Shown here in pieces: positions 13,428-28,220 of a stretch of 29,205 nt of DNA (the first letter of the stretch is position 1; each line of letters begins with the position of its first letter). Source of the DNA: a virus; the IMG/VR virus record IMGVR_UViG_3300000956_000023, positions 1 to 29,205 of that record; one strand, written 5' to 3'. The translations under genes and the position numbers were made by a program. The notes below the pieces were generated by a model, which was not told where the DNA came from, searched no databases, and saw only the letters and a program-made list of their open reading frames with translations.

Positions 13428-13502
13428 CAGGCGTTAGCTCAGTGGTAGAAAGCACGCGTCATGGTGCCGCGCGGTCGGGGCGTTCGATTCCCCCACGCCT
13501 GC
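13428..13502 (+). tRNA. Degenerate tRNA, probably tRNA-Pro(UGG)
   Basis: A cloverleaf can be drawn. The acceptor stem 13428-13434 (CAGGCGT) pairs perfectly with 13495-13501, and pairing extends two more bases outward. The D arm is GCTC-AGTGGTAGA-AAGC and the T arm has the loop TTCGATT. The anticodon stem is CGCG/CGCG around a loop in which positions 34-36 read TGG (Pro-UGG). C1-G72 is also typical of bacterial tRNA-Pro. Defects: C13-A22, T31-C39 and one T-stem mismatch, and A instead of the nearly universal U at position 33. No CCA is encoded. It may be a decaying tRNA. Confidence 0.55.
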
Positions 13503-13529
13503 CGGGACCCAAGCAGAATAGGAGGAACC

Positions 13530-13616
13530 ATGGCATGCAGTGAATGCGAGAAGGCACGTCGCGAGCGTGAGGCAGCTGCACAGCAGGCGCGCGAGGCAGC
13601 GGCCAAGGAATCCTGA
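13530..13616 (+). CDS. 28-aa Cys-pair peptide
   Basis: ATG 13530 has an excellent ribosome site (AGGAGGA, ending 4 nt upstream). The product starts MACSECEKARRERE and continues as an Ala/Glu/Arg amphipathic helix to the stop, which overlaps the endolysin ATG (TGATG). The CxxC pair could bind metal with a partner or form a disulfide. The strong site also makes this a likely translational lead-in for the endolysin, which has no site of its own. Function unknown. Confidence 0.62.
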   Translation: MACSECEKARREREAAAQQAREAAAKES

Positions 13617-14455: not shown

Positions 14456-14492
14456 CGGTAGGATGGGGCTACCTACAGCCGAGAGGACCACC
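14436..14492 (+). promoter_or_regulatory. Promoter P14459 with start-associated sequence
   Basis: TAGGAT (14459-14464), preceded by CGG, matches the -10 at 25255-25260 base for base (CGGTAGGAT). The -35 region is poor. About 16 nt after the -10, the start-associated sequence GAGAGGACCACC (14481-14492) abuts the ATG of the methyltransferase gene. The promoter begins right after the endolysin stop. Confidence 0.5.
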
Positions 14493-15212
14493 ATGTTATT
14501 CAACACATATCACCTGGCCGATATTAAGGACCAGGCGCATTTCTACCTGCGTGAAGATATGTCGGATCGCAAAGCCGTCGACGAGGTATTCATTCGCAAG
14601 AGTTACGGGCGCTTCCACTTCACGCCCGCGCCAGGGCAGCACTGGCTGGACTTGGGCGCGAACGTTGGCGCCTTCAGCGTCTGGGCGGCCAAGCATGGTG
14701 CCAGGGTCGACGCCTGGGAGCCTGAGCCTGAATGCTTCCGGCAGCTCCAGGTCAACGTTGCCCTGAACGGCCTGGACGAGCTGGTGACCATGCACCAAGC
14801 GGCCGCGTGGCCTGACGACAGCTACGCCGAGTCCGGCCGGACCCTGTCGGTGAATGGCGCCAACGGGAACGTCTGGCGATCGTCGTTGCTGAAGAATTGG
14901 CGTGGCGGCACAGATGTGGTCGTGCCGGTGGAATCCATTGAGGAACACTGGACCCCGGACGTATGCGTGAAAATGGATGTCGAGGGCAGCGAATTGAATC
15001 TGCTCGGTGGGCTCGGCAGCAAGCGCGTGCAGATGCTGGTGTTCGAGTATAGCTTCGATATCCTGCCTGACATGGCGCAATTCAAGGAGCTCATGGAAAT
15101 GCTGCGGGCGACTTATGAGCACGTGCACGGCGGTCCCGGTGCGGCGAGGTTGGCGGAGGAACGCTGGATCGCGCGCGGTCCCGCAAATGGCGTGAATGTG
15201 TTCTGCTGGTGA
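14493..15212 (+). CDS. FkbM-family SAM-dependent methyltransferase
   Basis: A 239-residue class I methyltransferase. WLDLGANVGAFSVWAA (about residues 50-65) is motif I for SAM binding, followed by the acidic VDAWEPEPECF (motif II), HQAAAWPDD, and VCVKMDVEGSE, which is the signature of the FkbM family. FkbM enzymes methylate oxygen on sugars or small molecules. In a phage the acceptor could be a cell-surface glycan or a modified nucleotide; nothing here decides it. ATG 14493 is set by the start-associated sequence ending at 14492, although the frame extends upstream to 14463. Own promoter and position after the lysis genes give it the look of a cargo gene. Confidence 0.82.
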   Translation: MLFNTYHLADIKDQAHFYLREDMSDRKAVDEVFIRKSYGRFHFTPAPGQHWLDLGANVGAFSVWAAKHGARVDAWEPEPECFRQLQVNVALNGLDELVTMHQAAAWPDDSYAESGRTLSVNGANGNVWRSSLLKNWRGGTDVVVPVESIEEHWTPDVCVKMDVEGSELNLLGGLGSKRVQMLVFEYSFDILPDMAQFKELMEMLRATYEHVHGGPGAARLAEERWIARGPANGVNVFCW

Positions 15213-15604: not shown

Positions 15605-16228
15605 ATGAGCACCAAGACTCCATTCAGCGTGATGACCCGCAAGTACGGCGAGCTCGTGACCGTCGGCATCAAGAGCCGTCGCGACCTGGCGATCAAGTTC
15701 GCGATCGCTCAGGACGCCGACGAGGTGTGGAGCCCGAAGGGTGAGGTTATCTGGGCGAACCCGGCGCTGGTCATGGCGACGGTTCGCCAGCAGGAGGAGC
15801 AGGCAACGATCGAGGACGAGGTTGCGCAGGAGCAGGAAGTCAGCAAGGATGAGACCATGACTGCAACCCTCACCGAGACCGAGACCGAGACCACCGCCAC
15901 GACCGAGCCGACCGAGCCCAAGGTCAAGAAGGCTCGCACCTACGCGCCGCGCGCCACCGTCCAGAACCCGAACGCGGTTACCGGCCGCTTCGACCTGGCG
16001 ACCTACAGCAAGTCCGATGGGGCCACCACCTACGCGCAGCGCAGCGACGCGGTCCTCCGCGCACTGCTCGGGATCAAGTGGCGCGAGCTCTGGGCGCTCG
16101 GTTTCACCCAGAAGAACAGTTCGAGCGTGTTGATCGACATCGAGGCCGGGCGGATCGATGCGGCGGAGTTCCGCGCCGAGATGCTCGAGAAGCTCGAGAT
16201 TCTCGCCGAGGACGACGAGCAGGAGTGA
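15605..16228 (+). CDS. Unknown acidic protein with Thr/Glu linker
   Basis: A 207-residue protein. The frame is open from 15500 (inside the previous gene's end), but promoter P15549 and the start-associated sequence place the start at ATG 15605. The first 60 residues (TRKYGELVTVGIKSRRDLAIKF, later GEVIWANPALVMATVRQQEE) look folded. A linker of Thr and Glu (TETETETTATTEPTEP) follows, then a second folded part (RSDAVLRALLGIKWRELWALGF, ending EFRAEMLEKLEILAED). The two-domain layout with an acidic linker suggests a DNA-associated or regulatory protein; I do not recognise a family. A strong terminator follows. Confidence 0.78.
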   Translation: MSTKTPFSVMTRKYGELVTVGIKSRRDLAIKFAIAQDADEVWSPKGEVIWANPALVMATVRQQEEQATIEDEVAQEQEVSKDETMTATLTETETETTATTEPTEPKVKKARTYAPRATVQNPNAVTGRFDLATYSKSDGATTYAQRSDAVLRALLGIKWRELWALGFTQKNSSSVLIDIEAGRIDAAEFRAEMLEKLEILAEDDEQE

Positions 16229-16384: not shown

Positions 16385-16804
16385 TTGACCAGACCCTCCT
16401 GGCCAGTACATGCCATGAACCTGGCGGCAGCTGCCGCAGAACGTAGTGAAGACCCCTACTGCCAGGTCGGCGCCACCGTCCTGGATCGGGACGGGGTCGT
16501 TTTGGGCGTTGGCTACAATGGCACGCCCAGTGGCGTGACGGGCGTTGACTGGACCGACCGCGACGCCCGGCGCCCGTACATGATCCACGCCGAAGCGAAC
16601 GCGCTGAGGCACACCACGCCTCCGCTCGCGCACGGTGGCTTGCTGGCGGTCACACACTACCCGTGCGCTGCCTGCTGCACCCTGGCACGGTCCTATGGCA
16701 TCCACACGGTGTTCTGGGCGAGTCCGCCCGACTGGCAGCGCTACCCGAAGCTGGACGAGGCATTCCTGATCCGGCTAGGTGTCGTGTTGTGGCAGGTGCC
16801 GTGA
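16385..16804 (+). CDS. dCMP deaminase
   Basis: A 139-residue zinc deaminase converting dCMP to dUMP. His68-Ala69-Glu70 (MIHAEANAL) and Cys94-x-x-Cys97 (YPCAACC) are the zinc and catalytic motif of the cytidine/deoxycytidylate deaminase superfamily. GVGYNGTPSGV (about 40-50) is the substrate loop typical of dCMP deaminases. The start is a TTG at 16385 placed exactly after the start-associated sequence; ATG 16415 is the alternative. It heads a coupled chain of five nucleotide-metabolism genes. If the downstream enzyme acts on dCMP, this one would compete with it for substrate. Confidence 0.9.
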   Translation: MTRPSWPVHAMNLAAAAAERSEDPYCQVGATVLDRDGVVLGVGYNGTPSGVTGVDWTDRDARRPYMIHAEANALRHTTPPLAHGGLLAVTHYPCAACCTLARSYGIHTVFWASPPDWQRYPKLDEAFLIRLGVVLWQVP

Positions 16805-16986
16805 TGGCCTACGTCCCTCGCCGACTCCGCAAGCGCGCGGCCACCTCTCAGTGGCTGCTGAAGGTGCCACCGCCGTTGACCGCCGAACAGGCCGAACAGA
16901 TCAAACGTCAGTGGCTGGCCAATTTCGGCCGGGGCAGTACTGCCATGGTCGTGCCGAATACGATGCCGGTAATGAGGGTCAAGTGA
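16804..16986 (+). CDS. Small basic protein, unknown
   Basis: A 60-residue protein with ATG 16804 overlapping the deaminase stop (TGATG) and its own stop overlapping the next GTG. It begins MAYVPRRLRKRAATSQWLLKV, then LTAEQAEQIKRQWLANFG (a helix) and a short hydrophobic end. It is very basic and may bind nucleic acid or one of the neighbouring enzymes. No family recognised. Confidence 0.68.
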   Translation: MAYVPRRLRKRAATSQWLLKVPPPLTAEQAEQIKRQWLANFGRGSTAMVVPNTMPVMRVK

Positions 16987-17369
16987 GAATCGAAGAATGG
17001 CCAGCGCCCACCATGGCCACCTGGCTAGCGAGGACGCGCGAGCTGCAGCGCGATTACTTCGGCGGCGACCCCGCCGAATTGCCCCCGGACGAGAAGGTCG
17101 CATTCGTGCGCAACATGGTCCTGGGCCTGATGGTCGAAGCGACCGAGGTGCTCGGTGTGGTCAAGAACTGGAAGTGGTGGCGCACGAGCGCGGTCGCATT
17201 CGACCGGGCGGAATACCTTGAGGAGCTGGTGGATGTGGTCCATTTCGCGGGTGCCTTGGCCGTGATGGCCGGCATTACCGATCAAGAATGGCAGGAGGCA
17301 TATGCACGAAAGACCGAGGTTGTGAAGCTGCGTGCCAGGGCCAAGGCCGAGGCAGGTGCAGCGCAGTGA
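16983..17369 (+). CDS. MazG/dUTPase-like nucleotide pyrophosphohydrolase
   Basis: A 128-residue all-alpha NTP pyrophosphohydrolase. FVRNMVLGLMVEATEVL is followed by KNWKWWR, then YLEELVDVVHFAGALAVMAGI: the E-x2-E ... E-x2-D pattern that binds Mg2+ in dimeric dUTPases, dCTPases and MazG. It removes a dNTP, producing dNMP for the next enzymes. Whether it prefers dUTP or dCTP cannot be read. In a cytosine-modifying phage the expected activity would be dCTP removal, as by T4 gp56. Start GTG 16983 overlaps the previous stop. Confidence 0.82.
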   Translation: MRIEEWPAPTMATWLARTRELQRDYFGGDPAELPPDEKVAFVRNMVLGLMVEATEVLGVVKNWKWWRTSAVAFDRAEYLEELVDVVHFAGALAVMAGITDQEWQEAYARKTEVVKLRARAKAEAGAAQ

Positions 17370-17872
17370 TCGTCATGTTTGAGGGCACGGACGGGGTCGG
17401 CAAGACGCGCACGGCCAAGTGGACTGCGCGGCTTTTACGGGCGCCGTTGGTGCACTACGGGCCTCCGCCCGAGGACCCAGACCCGTTGGAGATCTACGTG
17501 TCGCCAGTGTTCGAGCTCTTAGGTGAGTACGACCATGTGGTGCTGGACAGGAGTCCGTTTGGTGCCACGATCTGGGCGCAGCTCGGGTGCCATCCACCTA
17601 CCATGAACGAGGACTTCCATGGCTCGCTGTGCCGTTTCTTCGCCGTCTGGGACGGCTGGATGAACGTGCTGGTGCGGCCCGAGGCCGCGATCATGGCCGA
17701 GCTCGCCAGGCGCCGGGAGTCATCGCCCGTGACCCTCGAGGATTCGCTACGCGCCCAGGACCTGTACATTGACCTGGTGCTGGATCGCTCGATCCTGTTC
17801 GTGCCCGTGGCGCTCTTCACCAGCAGCTATTACCATCGATTGATCGGAGAGGTGCCACCACAATGGAAATGA
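17366..17872 (+). CDS. Deoxynucleoside monophosphate kinase (thymidylate kinase-like)
   Basis: A 168-residue P-loop kinase with GTDGVGKT at residues 7-14 from GTG 17366, which overlaps the previous stop. HVVLDRSPFGATIWAQL supplies the D-R-S motif of thymidylate-kinase-like NMP kinases. It would phosphorylate the dNMP made by the next gene product to the diphosphate. The 3' end overlaps the next gene by 10 nt, and the start-associated sequence of that gene lies inside this coding region. The length (usually just over 200 for TMK) indicates a compact phage form. Confidence 0.82.
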   Translation: MIVMFEGTDGVGKTRTAKWTARLLRAPLVHYGPPPEDPDPLEIYVSPVFELLGEYDHVVLDRSPFGATIWAQLGCHPPTMNEDFHGSLCRFFAVWDGWMNVLVRPEAAIMAELARRRESSPVTLEDSLRAQDLYIDLVLDRSILFVPVALFTSSYYHRLIGEVPPQWK

Positions 17873-18690
17873 ACCTGCTGACCCCGGCGGAGGCCGTCTA
17901 CTGGGGAACGCGCATTACGATGCAGCACGGGCGCGTGCGAACGTCTCGCGGGATGGAGCATCTGGAGATCCAGAATGCCACCTTCCACATTCGCTTCCCG
18001 CACCTGAATCCCCTGGATGCGCCAGGACGGAATGCGAAGCCTGCCATTGGTGCCCTCGAGGCGGTGCAGCTCGTGGGGCAGCTGTCGCATCCAGAGTCGG
18101 TGACGCGCCGAGTGGCAGCGTTCAAGCCGTACCTGGATGACGGCATCTTCTGGGGAGCCTACGGCACTCGGGTGGTCAGCCAGCTATCGCGCGCTGAGCG
18201 TCTGCTCCGCCAGGACCCTGGCACGCGTCAGGCCGTGGTGAGCATCTACGATGGGCAGCGCGACCTGCTGGCACAGGCCCGAGACGTGCCGTGCACCCTC
18301 ACCCTGCAGTTCCTGTGGGAGGCGCCTATGGTCTTGGGCCTACGGGCGTCCATGCGCAGCAACGACGCGTTTTTGGGCCTTCCCTACGACCTGTTCCAGT
18401 TCACTGCCCTGCAGTGCGCCATGGCTGACGCGCTAGGCGCCCGAGCTGGAGCCTACGTCCACACGGTCGGGTCGCTCCACCTCTACCTACGGGACCGCGA
18501 GGCGGCAGAGCGTATCACGTTCCCTGGTGAGCCGTTGACTCACGAGACTGAGTACGTGCGTAAGTGGAATGGCGACACCATCGGCGTCATAAGCGAGCGT
18601 GCCCGCGATCTGCTGTTCGGATATGCGCTGGCTGAGCCAACAGAGTTCGAGCAATATCTGCAACATTCACTCGAGAGGATCACCACATGA
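17863..18690 (+). CDS. Thymidylate-synthase-fold enzyme, candidate dCMP hydroxymethylase
   Basis: A 275-residue enzyme of the thymidylate synthase fold. Aligned by eye with E. coli ThyA, the nucleophile is Cys144 (DVPCTLTLQF; ThyA Cys146). RSNDAFLGLPYD matches the phosphate and pyrimidine-binding segment, and GSLHLY supplies His206 and Tyr208 (ThyA His207, Tyr209). The residue equal to Asn177 of ThyA, which reads the O4/N3 side of dUMP, is Asp176 here. Asp at this position is the hallmark of dCMP hydroxymethylases (T4 gp42, Asp179) and switches thymidylate synthase toward dCMP in mutants. I infer dCMP as substrate. A variant thymidylate synthase is the alternative. A degenerate start-associated sequence (17846-17862) precedes the ATG. 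Confidence 0.78.
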   Translation: MEMNLLTPAEAVYWGTRITMQHGRVRTSRGMEHLEIQNATFHIRFPHLNPLDAPGRNAKPAIGALEAVQLVGQLSHPESVTRRVAAFKPYLDDGIFWGAYGTRVVSQLSRAERLLRQDPGTRQAVVSIYDGQRDLLAQARDVPCTLTLQFLWEAPMVLGLRASMRSNDAFLGLPYDLFQFTALQCAMADALGARAGAYVHTVGSLHLYLRDREAAERITFPGEPLTHETEYVRKWNGDTIGVISERARDLLFGYALAEPTEFEQYLQHSLERITT

Positions 18691-19034
18691 TGAAAGCATT
18701 CGAGTACCGGCCGCTAATCTGTCGCGGCATCGATGAATGTGGAAACGGGCGGACCATCTCGGTATTCTCGAGAAGGAAGACCCTGAATCCATGCCTCGCC
18801 ATTATCACGTGCCATCGGAAGCACACCGTTCCGGCGTACATTCTTCACCGATATCCGACCATCACACACGTCCTGGCGACAAGCTCGGACGGCCAATCCC
18901 TGCTGCTGGATGCGACTCGGCGCGGTGAGATCCATTTGGGGACGAATATCAACGCTGATGCGCCGAATCGATTCGACGGCAACTACTACTGGCTGCCAGA
19001 GGCATACGACAAGCCGTTTGGGGTGAAGCTATGA
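18687..19034 (+). CDS. Unknown 115-aa protein
   Basis: Starts at ATG 18687 directly after a start-associated sequence (GAGAGGATCACCAC, 18673-18686) that lies inside the end of the preceding gene; a second in-frame ATG follows at 18690. The protein has mixed strands (CLAIITCHRKHTVPAYILH, ITHVLATSSDGQSLLLDA) and ends GNYYWLPEAYDKPFGVKL. No enzymatic motif is visible. It sits between the nucleotide genes and the nuclease and may belong to either. Confidence 0.75.
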   Translation: MMKAFEYRPLICRGIDECGNGRTISVFSRRKTLNPCLAIITCHRKHTVPAYILHRYPTITHVLATSSDGQSLLLDATRRGEIHLGTNINADAPNRFDGNYYWLPEAYDKPFGVKL

Positions 19035-27460: not shown

Positions 27461-27735
27461 CGTTCGACGAGTGGTGGACCGCATACTGGAAGAACCGCAC
27501 CGACACCGCCGGGCATGACATCGCCCGCAGCACTGCCGCCGACGCCTGGCACGCTGGCGCCGGGCCGGAGGCAGACCGCCGGGTCGACCGACTGATCCTG
27601 AGACAAGCCCGACGGTGGGCCGACCTGCGCGAGCAGGTGCAGGCCATGCATGATGAGGCGGCTCGACAGAATGAGGAGTATGAGCGCGCTGCGTTCGGGC
27701 GGGTGCTGACGTTACTGGACGGGGGCGAGCAGTGA
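27457..27735 (+). CDS. LREQV-LLDG family protein, copy 3
   Basis: A 92-residue protein from GTG 27457 (GTGA). TFDEWWTAYWKNRTDTAGHD and ARSTAADAWHAGAGPEADRR resemble the N-terminal module common in phage proteins beginning FDEWW. ADLREQVQAMHDEAARQNEEYE and GRVLTLLDGGEQ form the shared C-terminal unit. A new N terminus is again linked to the same C-terminal module, so shuffling seems likely. Confidence 0.74.
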   Translation: MTFDEWWTAYWKNRTDTAGHDIARSTAADAWHAGAGPEADRRVDRLILRQARRWADLREQVQAMHDEAARQNEEYERAAFGRVLTLLDGGEQ

Positions 27736-28220
27736 ACACCCTGGTCACGTTCGACCTGGATTCGACCTTGGCGGACACACGTTGGCGCCGAGGCATGATT
27801 CAGCCGGATGGCGGCACCGACTGGCGGGCATACGCCCTAGCATGCCCCCAGGATACCCTGGTAACGTCCGTGGCGTCCCTCTGGGGCGCTCTGCGGCCGC
27901 ACCATAGCATCTGGGTCGTCTCCGGCCGCCACGTGGCTGCACGGGACGCCTCGGTACGTTGGCTGTTGCGCCATCAGCTGCAACCCTCGGGCGTGGTCCT
28001 GATGGACCCCGGTGACGGGCGAGTCACGGATACGGACCACTGCGCATGGAAGGTCGGCGCGATCCAGAGCTTGGCTCGATCGTTGGGGAAGCGACACGTG
28101 TTGCACGTGGACGACTACCCGCCCGTCGGGCGAGCTTGCCAGGCAGCTGGTCTCGAGTGCCTGATCGTGACTCCGCCGCAGATCCTGGAGAAGTTCGAGG
28201 GTGAGGGCGGATATGTTTGA
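27732..28220 (+). CDS. HAD-family phosphatase
   Basis: A 162-residue HAD-superfamily enzyme. FDLDSTLAD (residues 7-15) holds the nucleophile Asp8 and Asp10. VVSGRH supplies motif II, and LHVDDYPPVG the acidic motif IV; a Lys in HCAWKVGA may be motif III. The short, cap-poor form and the STLAD start resemble the 3'-phosphatase domain of phage polynucleotide kinases, so a nucleic-acid end or nucleotide phosphatase is likely. The start is GTG 27732, coupled to the previous gene. Confidence 0.8.
   Translation: MNTLVTFDLDSTLADTRWRRGMIQPDGGTDWRAYALACPQDTLVTSVASLWGALRPHHSIWVVSGRHVAARDASVRWLLRHQLQPSGVVLMDPGDGRVTDTDHCAWKVGAIQSLARSLGKRHVLHVDDYPPVGRACQAAGLECLIVTPPQILEKFEGEGGYV

Follow-up and report, generated by a model that had tools for sequence, protein, structure and literature searches.

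A compact nucleotide-enzyme operon of an IMG/VR phage with a predicted dCMP 5-hydroxymethylase from its own clade

The window analysed here, from a small phage that is uncultured, is IMG/VR virus record IMGVR_UViG_3300000956_000023 at its full length of 29,205 bases, and between positions 16385 and 18690 it carries four nucleotide-enzyme genes, predicted to encode a deoxycytidine monophosphate (dCMP) deaminase, a nucleoside triphosphate pyrophosphohydrolase, a nucleotide kinase and an enzyme of the thymidylate synthase (TS) fold. We put the probability at about 80% that this cassette makes 5-hydroxymethyl-deoxycytidine triphosphate (hm-dCTP) and removes dCTP, and that the phage DNA contains 5-hydroxymethylcytosine (hmC) replacing some or all of its cytosine. 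The best prediction for the product of 17863–18690 is a dCMP 5-hydroxymethylase of a separate clade, because of the acid at Asp141, the top match to MilA, the Arg122 and Ser166 residues, the residue classes and the gene linkage. What the sequence itself shows is the set of genes with their motifs and linkage, the fold and the residue classes; from these we infer every substrate and product and the degree of DNA modification. The original prediction had proposed a cytosine-modification cassette around an enzyme with an Asn-to-Asp exchange, and this proposal is supported by the co-variation of the active-site residues, the fold, the residue classes and the gene linkage.

The enzyme belongs to the TS superfamily, with a PF00303 score of 62.2 bits against a curated cut-off of 24.3. 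Its best sequence match in the PDB is MilA, the cytidine monophosphate (CMP) 5-hydroxymethylase of Streptomyces (2e-20). The AlphaFold2 (AF2) model, with a mean predicted local distance difference test (pLDDT) value of 92.8, also has MilA as its top Foldseek match (1.3e-18), and the match probability is 1.00 to both MilA and TS. The gene and its key codons are as follows, with residues numbered from the ATG at 17863.

17863..18690, plus strand: TS-fold enzyme, predicted dCMP 5-hydroxymethylase, 275 amino acids (PF00303, 5e-17)
18283..18285, plus strand: codon of Asp141, the hydroxymethylation signature, corresponding to T4 Asp145 and located three residues ahead of the catalytic Cys
18292..18294, plus strand: codon of the catalytic Cys144, invariant across 143 relatives
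18388..18390, plus strand: codon of Asp176, the predicted cytosine selector, equivalent of Asn177 in Escherichia coli TS (EcTS) and Asp179 in T4 (role from PMC8670742 and PMC5175136)

The active-site set comprises E66, Y100, R122, D141, C144, S166, D168, D176, H206 and Y208. Asp176 aligns with Asn177 of E. coli ThyA, with Asp179 of T4 gp42 and with an Asp of MilA. As the original prediction had stated, Asp replaces the Asn here while Cys144, His206, Tyr208 and the R165-S166-N167-D168 segment followed by FLG are kept; all of these are present. The equivalents of the catalytic Cys, Glu60, Tyr96 and phosphate-binding Arg residues of a gp42-type enzyme are found as C144, E66, Y100, R122 and R165, and both acids expected of that type are in place, Asp176 at the EcTS Asn177 position and Asp141 three residues before the Cys (position −3). 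Asp141 had gone unmentioned in the original prediction. In T4 dCMP hydroxymethylase, Asp145 activates the water molecule that ends up as the hydroxyl group, the D145N variant is inactive, and an acid at −3 has been proposed as the signature dividing hydroxymethylases from thymidylate synthases (PMC6400193). Asp141 is the strongest evidence on the activity of the enzyme, and it favours hydroxymethylation over methylation. The residues of a canonical thymidylate synthase (Asn177, Leu143 and His147) are replaced by Asp176, Asp141 and Thr145. Regarding the sugar, exchange of Lys133 and Ala176 in MilA for Arg and Ser flips its preference from CMP to dCMP (PMC5175136). The window enzyme has Arg122 and Ser166 at these two positions and not the ribose-type residues of MilA and BcmA, which points to a deoxyribose substrate.

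To place the enzyme, 143 relatives were gathered by pattern scans; alignment queries were needed, as a single-sequence scan of viral contigs gave no relative. Asp141 is present in all 143. Asp occupies the 176 position in 141 of them, a count that is partly selected since one of the two patterns contained this Asp, and the two exceptions are enzymes of the deoxyuridine monophosphate (dUMP) type with another residue set. The selector Asp recurs where this selection plays no part: it occurs in bacterial contigs retrieved with patterns that lacked it, and in independent records of DSL-LC01 and of Gordonia, Pelagibacter and spring-water phages. Across the 38 dereplicated viral sequences, Asp141 and Asp176 are both invariant. 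In a quick tree, the window enzyme pairs with that of locus L038 (SH-aLRT support 99) within a clade of 43 rows (99). Many of the bacterial contigs (L144–L207, for example Comamonas, Rubrivivax, Sorangium and Paractinoplanes) have enzymes with the Asp, Thr and Asp residues described below; these mostly lack kinase and deaminase neighbours, and some have Ser at −3. Such genes may resemble MilA or be of another non-phage kind. As a separate observation, the genes annotated as "thymidylate synthase" in Microbacterium foliorum phages of about 40 kb (H110–H113, H115–H120) match T4 gp42 at 27–30% identity.

Three positions, −3 and +1 relative to the Cys and 177, divide the aligned set cleanly into residue classes. 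Canonical thymidylate synthases are L/H/N and the window enzyme is D/T/D, a class common to T4 gp42, MilA and most phage relatives. The enzymes of Montesquieu and LuckyBarnes, which adjoin genes of the 5-hydroxymethyluracil (5-hmU) type, are D/N/N and are presumably dUMP hydroxymethylases. DLP4, which stood in for its relative Xp12 in the comparison, is N/P/D; Xp12 DNA contains 5-methylcytosine (PMC9206674, PMC7653180). RB69p048 is E/T/D, but its RSND is replaced by RSQN and the Tyr that binds the substrate by Phe. RB69 is a Mosigvirus, a group with DNA built on 5-hydroxycytosine (PMC13390438), and the window enzyme might by analogy be a 5-hydroxy-dCMP synthase (compare PDB entries 9iqu and 9iqc, titled dCMP hydroxylase AfhB and riboflavin-dependent monooxygenase). 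The fold and the Asp at 177 are common to both, and RB69 shares the acid at −3 and has, in the cluster of its enzyme gene, a gene annotated as thymidylate kinase. However, the window enzyme has RSND and H-L-Y where RB69p048, the one sequence defining this type, has RSQN and H-V-F; it keeps the Asp whose counterpart in thymidylate synthase makes the pterin contact (PMC6400193), and the profile of its clade matches MilA at 3e-40 but 9iqu at 1e-20. We therefore regard 5-hydroxy-dCMP synthesis as extremely improbable.

The other genes around the predicted hydroxymethylase are listed below.

16385..16804, plus strand: dCMP deaminase, 139 amino acids from a TTG at 16385 that follows GAGAGG; the open reading frame (ORF) is open from 16352
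16804..16986, plus strand: ORF of 60 amino acids between the deaminase and pyrophosphohydrolase genes, with stop/start overlaps on both sides
16983..17369, plus strand: all-alpha dUTPase_2/MazG-fold nucleoside triphosphate pyrophosphohydrolase, predicted to act on dCTP and deoxyuridine triphosphate (dUTP) (PF08761, E = 2e-12)
17366..17872, plus strand: P-loop nucleoside monophosphate kinase with GTDGVGKT and DRSPFG motifs, predicted 5-hydroxymethyl-dCMP (hm-dCMP) kinase
18687..19034, plus strand: ORF of 115 amino acids whose ATG overlaps the hydroxymethylase stop; the operon continues here, but the gene is not conserved in the cassette

From the deaminase to the TS-fold enzyme, the genes overlap or abut, each by a few bases, as expected of a translationally coupled operon. 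Neither small ORF has a Pfam or PHROG match, and no relative of the 60-residue one was found among the related loci. A GAGAGG-ACCACC-like stretch recurs directly upstream of the starts at 15606, 16385, 17863 and 18687 and is probably the ribosome-binding site of this phage.

The deaminase has the HAE and PCxxC zinc motifs of its family, matches PF00383 (E = 9e-16) and PHROG 174 (dCMP deaminase), and among PDB entries resembles the dCMP deaminase 2w4l (3e-16) and 1vq2 (2e-5). The kinase and the MazG/dUTPase-like gene that the original prediction placed upstream, in the roles of T4 gp1 and gp56, are both real. The pyrophosphohydrolase has the conserved acidic helices and the PF08761 match of a putative dUTPase_2/dCTP pyrophosphatase; T4 gp56 belongs to the same family (2e-5, above the cut-off), and the ELVDVVHF and WKWW segments align with ELVDIFHF and WKKW of gp56. 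The kinase, whose role as gp1 counterpart is assigned by inference, shows no link to gp1 among the profile and Foldseek matches listed. Its profile search places YorR of SPbeta first (8e-20), followed by thymidylate kinases, and its AF2 model (pLDDT 89) matches deoxynucleoside kinases, YorR and thymidylate kinases in Foldseek. No entry named as T4 deoxynucleoside monophosphate kinase appears among the listed profile and Foldseek matches, and no direct comparison with gp1 was made. T4 gp1 is annotated as acting on deoxythymidine monophosphate (dTMP), dGMP and hm-dCMP and not on dCMP; thus, a thymidylate-kinase-like enzyme accepting 5-substituted pyrimidines would be a reasonable stand-in. Kinship of this kinase with p045 of RB69 was considered and dropped, as the latter scores a weak 34.8 bits with the family profile and hhalign is restricted to 22 P-loop columns.

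The linkage of these genes was counted in the 38 dereplicated viral loci, the window included; many loci are short, and absence is therefore uninformative. The kinase gene adjoins the enzyme gene (within 1.5 kb) in 35 of the 38. For neighbours up to 5 kb away, the counts are 35 for a dCMP deaminase and nine for a dUTPase_2 gene. The order deaminase, dUTPase_2, kinase, hydroxymethylase is kept in the subclade of the window (L012–L020, L022, L038 and L069). Dihydrofolate reductase (DHFR) is found within 5 kb in none of the 38 loci and nowhere in the window, whereas canonical TS loci have DHFR in 9/15 and the kinase in 0/15. This difference from the canonical loci and from DLP4 argues for hydroxymethylation rather than methylation. 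A dCMP 5-methylase giving 5-methylcytosine DNA as in Xp12 is accordingly a very unlikely reading. N177D changes in thymidylate synthase suffice for dCMP methylation (cited in PMC8670742), and DLP4 has similar neighbours (deaminase and pyrophosphohydrolase) and the Asp at 177; however, DLP4 combines these with Asn at −3, Pro at +1 and an adjoining DHFR, required for reductive methylation, while the window has Asp, Thr and no such gene. The original prediction had left hydroxymethyl and methyl products open, and of these the former is favoured.

The same four activities would also precisely compose an ordinary pathway to deoxythymidine triphosphate (dTTP), in which the deaminase and dUTPase yield dUMP, the TS-fold enzyme dTMP and the thymidylate-kinase-like enzyme its diphosphate. 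This is very unlikely, since the canonical enzymes compared are L/H/N and often have DHFR alongside, in contrast to the D/T/D window enzyme and its clade. Equally little weight falls on a route in which the deaminase acts after the TS-fold enzyme, converting hm-dCMP to hm-dUMP, which the kinase would then phosphorylate to hm-dUDP, so that hydroxymethyluracil replaces thymine. The frequent deaminase linkage and the likeness of the kinase to thymidylate kinase would suit it; yet phages equipped for hydroxymethyluracil seem to rely on a D/N/N enzyme that acts directly on dUMP, together with 5-hmU-specific genes (Montesquieu, LuckyBarnes), and T4, an hmC phage, has a deaminase too. For the same reason, the deaminase, which had been called unexpected, is a normal member of the cassette: besides T4 cd, DLP4 has a deaminase next to the enzyme (PMC9206674), and the two co-occur in the MetaGPA study (PMC8670742). 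It likely balances dCMP against dUMP; the original prediction had suggested that it may tune nucleotide pools.

We propose the following pathway for the predicted hydroxymethylation cassette. First, the dUTPase_2/gp56-type enzyme would cut dCTP, as well as dUTP, to the monophosphates. The TS-fold enzyme would then hydroxymethylate C5 of dCMP using methylene-tetrahydrofolate, with Cys144 as the nucleophile, Asp176 as the cytosine selector and Asp141 as the water activator. The small kinase would phosphorylate hm-dCMP, ideally not dCMP, and the nucleoside diphosphate kinase of the host would finish hm-dCTP. The deaminase would turn excess dCMP into dUMP, from which the host makes thymidylate, and so keep C and T in balance. 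Finally, a polymerase would incorporate hm-dCTP; this is probably that of the host, because no family-A or family-B DNA polymerase is found among the window proteins scanned. The purpose of the modified cytosine is probably to hide the phage DNA from bacterial defences, as in T4, whose genes for this are arranged in another way and are in part unrelated.

Some related loci have additional parts. In DSL-LC01-like relatives (L002:4952–5947, L091:3940–4953, L075:3489–4376 and similar), the kinase is extended at its C-terminus by a domain of about 150 residues, with LVGD.RN..LPF.P..GNSG and HPQYVRRF motifs that look uracil-DNA glycosylase-like by eye; a PDB profile search with this domain gave no significant match. 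In one lineage (L021:1602–4544, L023:422–4540, L042:1572–4561), three conserved genes lie between dUTPase_2 and the kinase, encoding a 337-residue protein (PHROG 13881, unknown), a 350-residue protein without a match and a protein resembling pyridoxal phosphate (PLP) enzymes. These are possible hypermodification genes, although profile comparison did not support kinship of the 350-residue protein with the helical family of 5-hmU DNA kinases or with the "thymine pyrophosphorylase" of Montesquieu. Because of the glycosylase-like kinase fusion and the three inserted genes with their PLP-enzyme-like member, we also considered that the kinase acts on hmC in DNA, like 5-hmU DNA kinases, and not on hm-dCMP, the cassette then being the core of an undescribed route of cytosine hypermodification; we consider this unlikely.

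Several observations weigh against the proposed 5-hydroxymethylcytosine pathway. The enzyme has Gly98 where T4 has Ser94, a Ser/Thr position two residues before the conserved Tyr, and Gly is found there in 141 of the 143 relatives. Ser94 is described as highly conserved in dCMP hydroxymethylases, with about 25% activity in S94A and none in S94N (PMC6400193). We therefore do not place the enzyme in the gp42 family but speak of a predicted dCMP hydroxymethylase that forms part of a different clade. In the tree, T4 gp42 and RB69p048 fall outside the 43-row clade on very long branches of unsure placement, and we found no characterized enzyme, assay or base analysis for this clade in the literature. 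The kinase is thymidylate-kinase-like, and its substrate is not readable from the sequence. The record is a linear fragment with both ends cut, and no glucosyltransferase, glycosyltransferase, carbamoyltransferase or other known hypermodification enzyme was recognized among the window proteins scanned; thus, the phage may end up with unadorned 5-hydroxymethylcytosine or with a form bearing an unrecognized addition.

In the window, a truncated large terminase gene is followed by portal, prohead protease, capsid and tail genes and then by the nucleotide-enzyme operon, beyond which lie an exonuclease-like gene, a Prim-Pol/D5 primase-helicase, a RusA resolvase and an HNH gene. The terminase distantly resembles those of Gordonia phages, and no near DNA relative was found among named phages. 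A tRNA-Thr (GGT) gene at 13428–13503 lies closely upstream of an ORF starting at 13616, and the product of 27732–28220 is a HAD-type phosphatase (PHROG 415, E = 6e-18) that resembles the corresponding half of polynucleotide kinase. Upstream of the operon, 14463–15212 encodes an FkbM-type methyltransferase (PF05050, E = 3e-12), which was dropped as a candidate hypermodifying partner since related loci lack a counterpart.

If the proposed pathway is true, a widespread phage clade makes 5-hydroxymethylcytosine precursors with enzymes that in actinophages are mostly labelled thymidylate synthase and thymidylate kinase, and that in environmental phages have no annotation. The residues at −3, +1 and 177, together with the presence of DHFR, would then tell methyl, hydroxymethyl and uracil types apart among such annotations. 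The pathway would also predict phage DNAs that resist cytosine-sensitive restriction enzymes and modification-dependent restriction systems that attack them, and one would have to ask how so small a phage, with no recognized polymerase of its own, gets the host polymerase to use a modified nucleotide. The chemistry and the pathway logic are already known from T4; the new elements are a compact operon of four genes, a non-gp1 kinase and the uncharacterized clade with its breadth.

Finally, we compared the cassette with known systems. The four predicted activities resemble those of gp42, gp56, gp1 and cd of T4: gp56 and the window protein are both PF08761 members, both hydroxymethylases have Asp at 177 and at −3, and both phages encode a dCMP deaminase, for which the T4 annotation names HM-dCTP and dCTP as activators and the synthesis of dUMP as the purpose. 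In contrast, the window hydroxymethylase is in a separate clade without Ser94, the kinase shows no gp1 kinship among the matches listed, and the genes form one tight operon on a record of about 30 kb in which no DNA polymerase is recognized and no glucosyltransferase is seen. MilA (PDB 5b6d, 5jnh) is the closest solved structure by both sequence and fold and is also D/T/D, but it serves antibiotic synthesis and prefers CMP via Lys133 and Ala176, where the window has the deoxyribose-type pair. In MetaGPA contigs, Asp177 TS-like enzymes likewise stand together with dCMP deaminase and PRA-PH/MazG-like domains, and that study links these to modified-cytosine phage DNA (PMC8670742); its main text does not mention thymidylate kinase, and its detailed system has a carbamoyltransferase, of which none is recognized in the window. 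In the DLP4/AXL1/Xp12 group, the deaminase, Asp177 TS-like enzyme and pyrophosphohydrolase also adjoin one another; the Asn at −3 and the DHFR in the operon are consistent with methylation rather than hydroxymethylation. Lastly, DSL-LC01 and the Gordonia phages Phendrix, GMA2 and Mareelih have the kinase, a D/T/D enzyme and the deaminase close by, and across the aligned region their enzymes are 28–34% identical to that of the window. These phages are larger, and most have a DNA polymerase annotated in the vicinity; the DSL-LC01 type has the C-terminally extended kinase. Their cassette genes are annotated only as thymidylate synthase, kinase or hypothetical.

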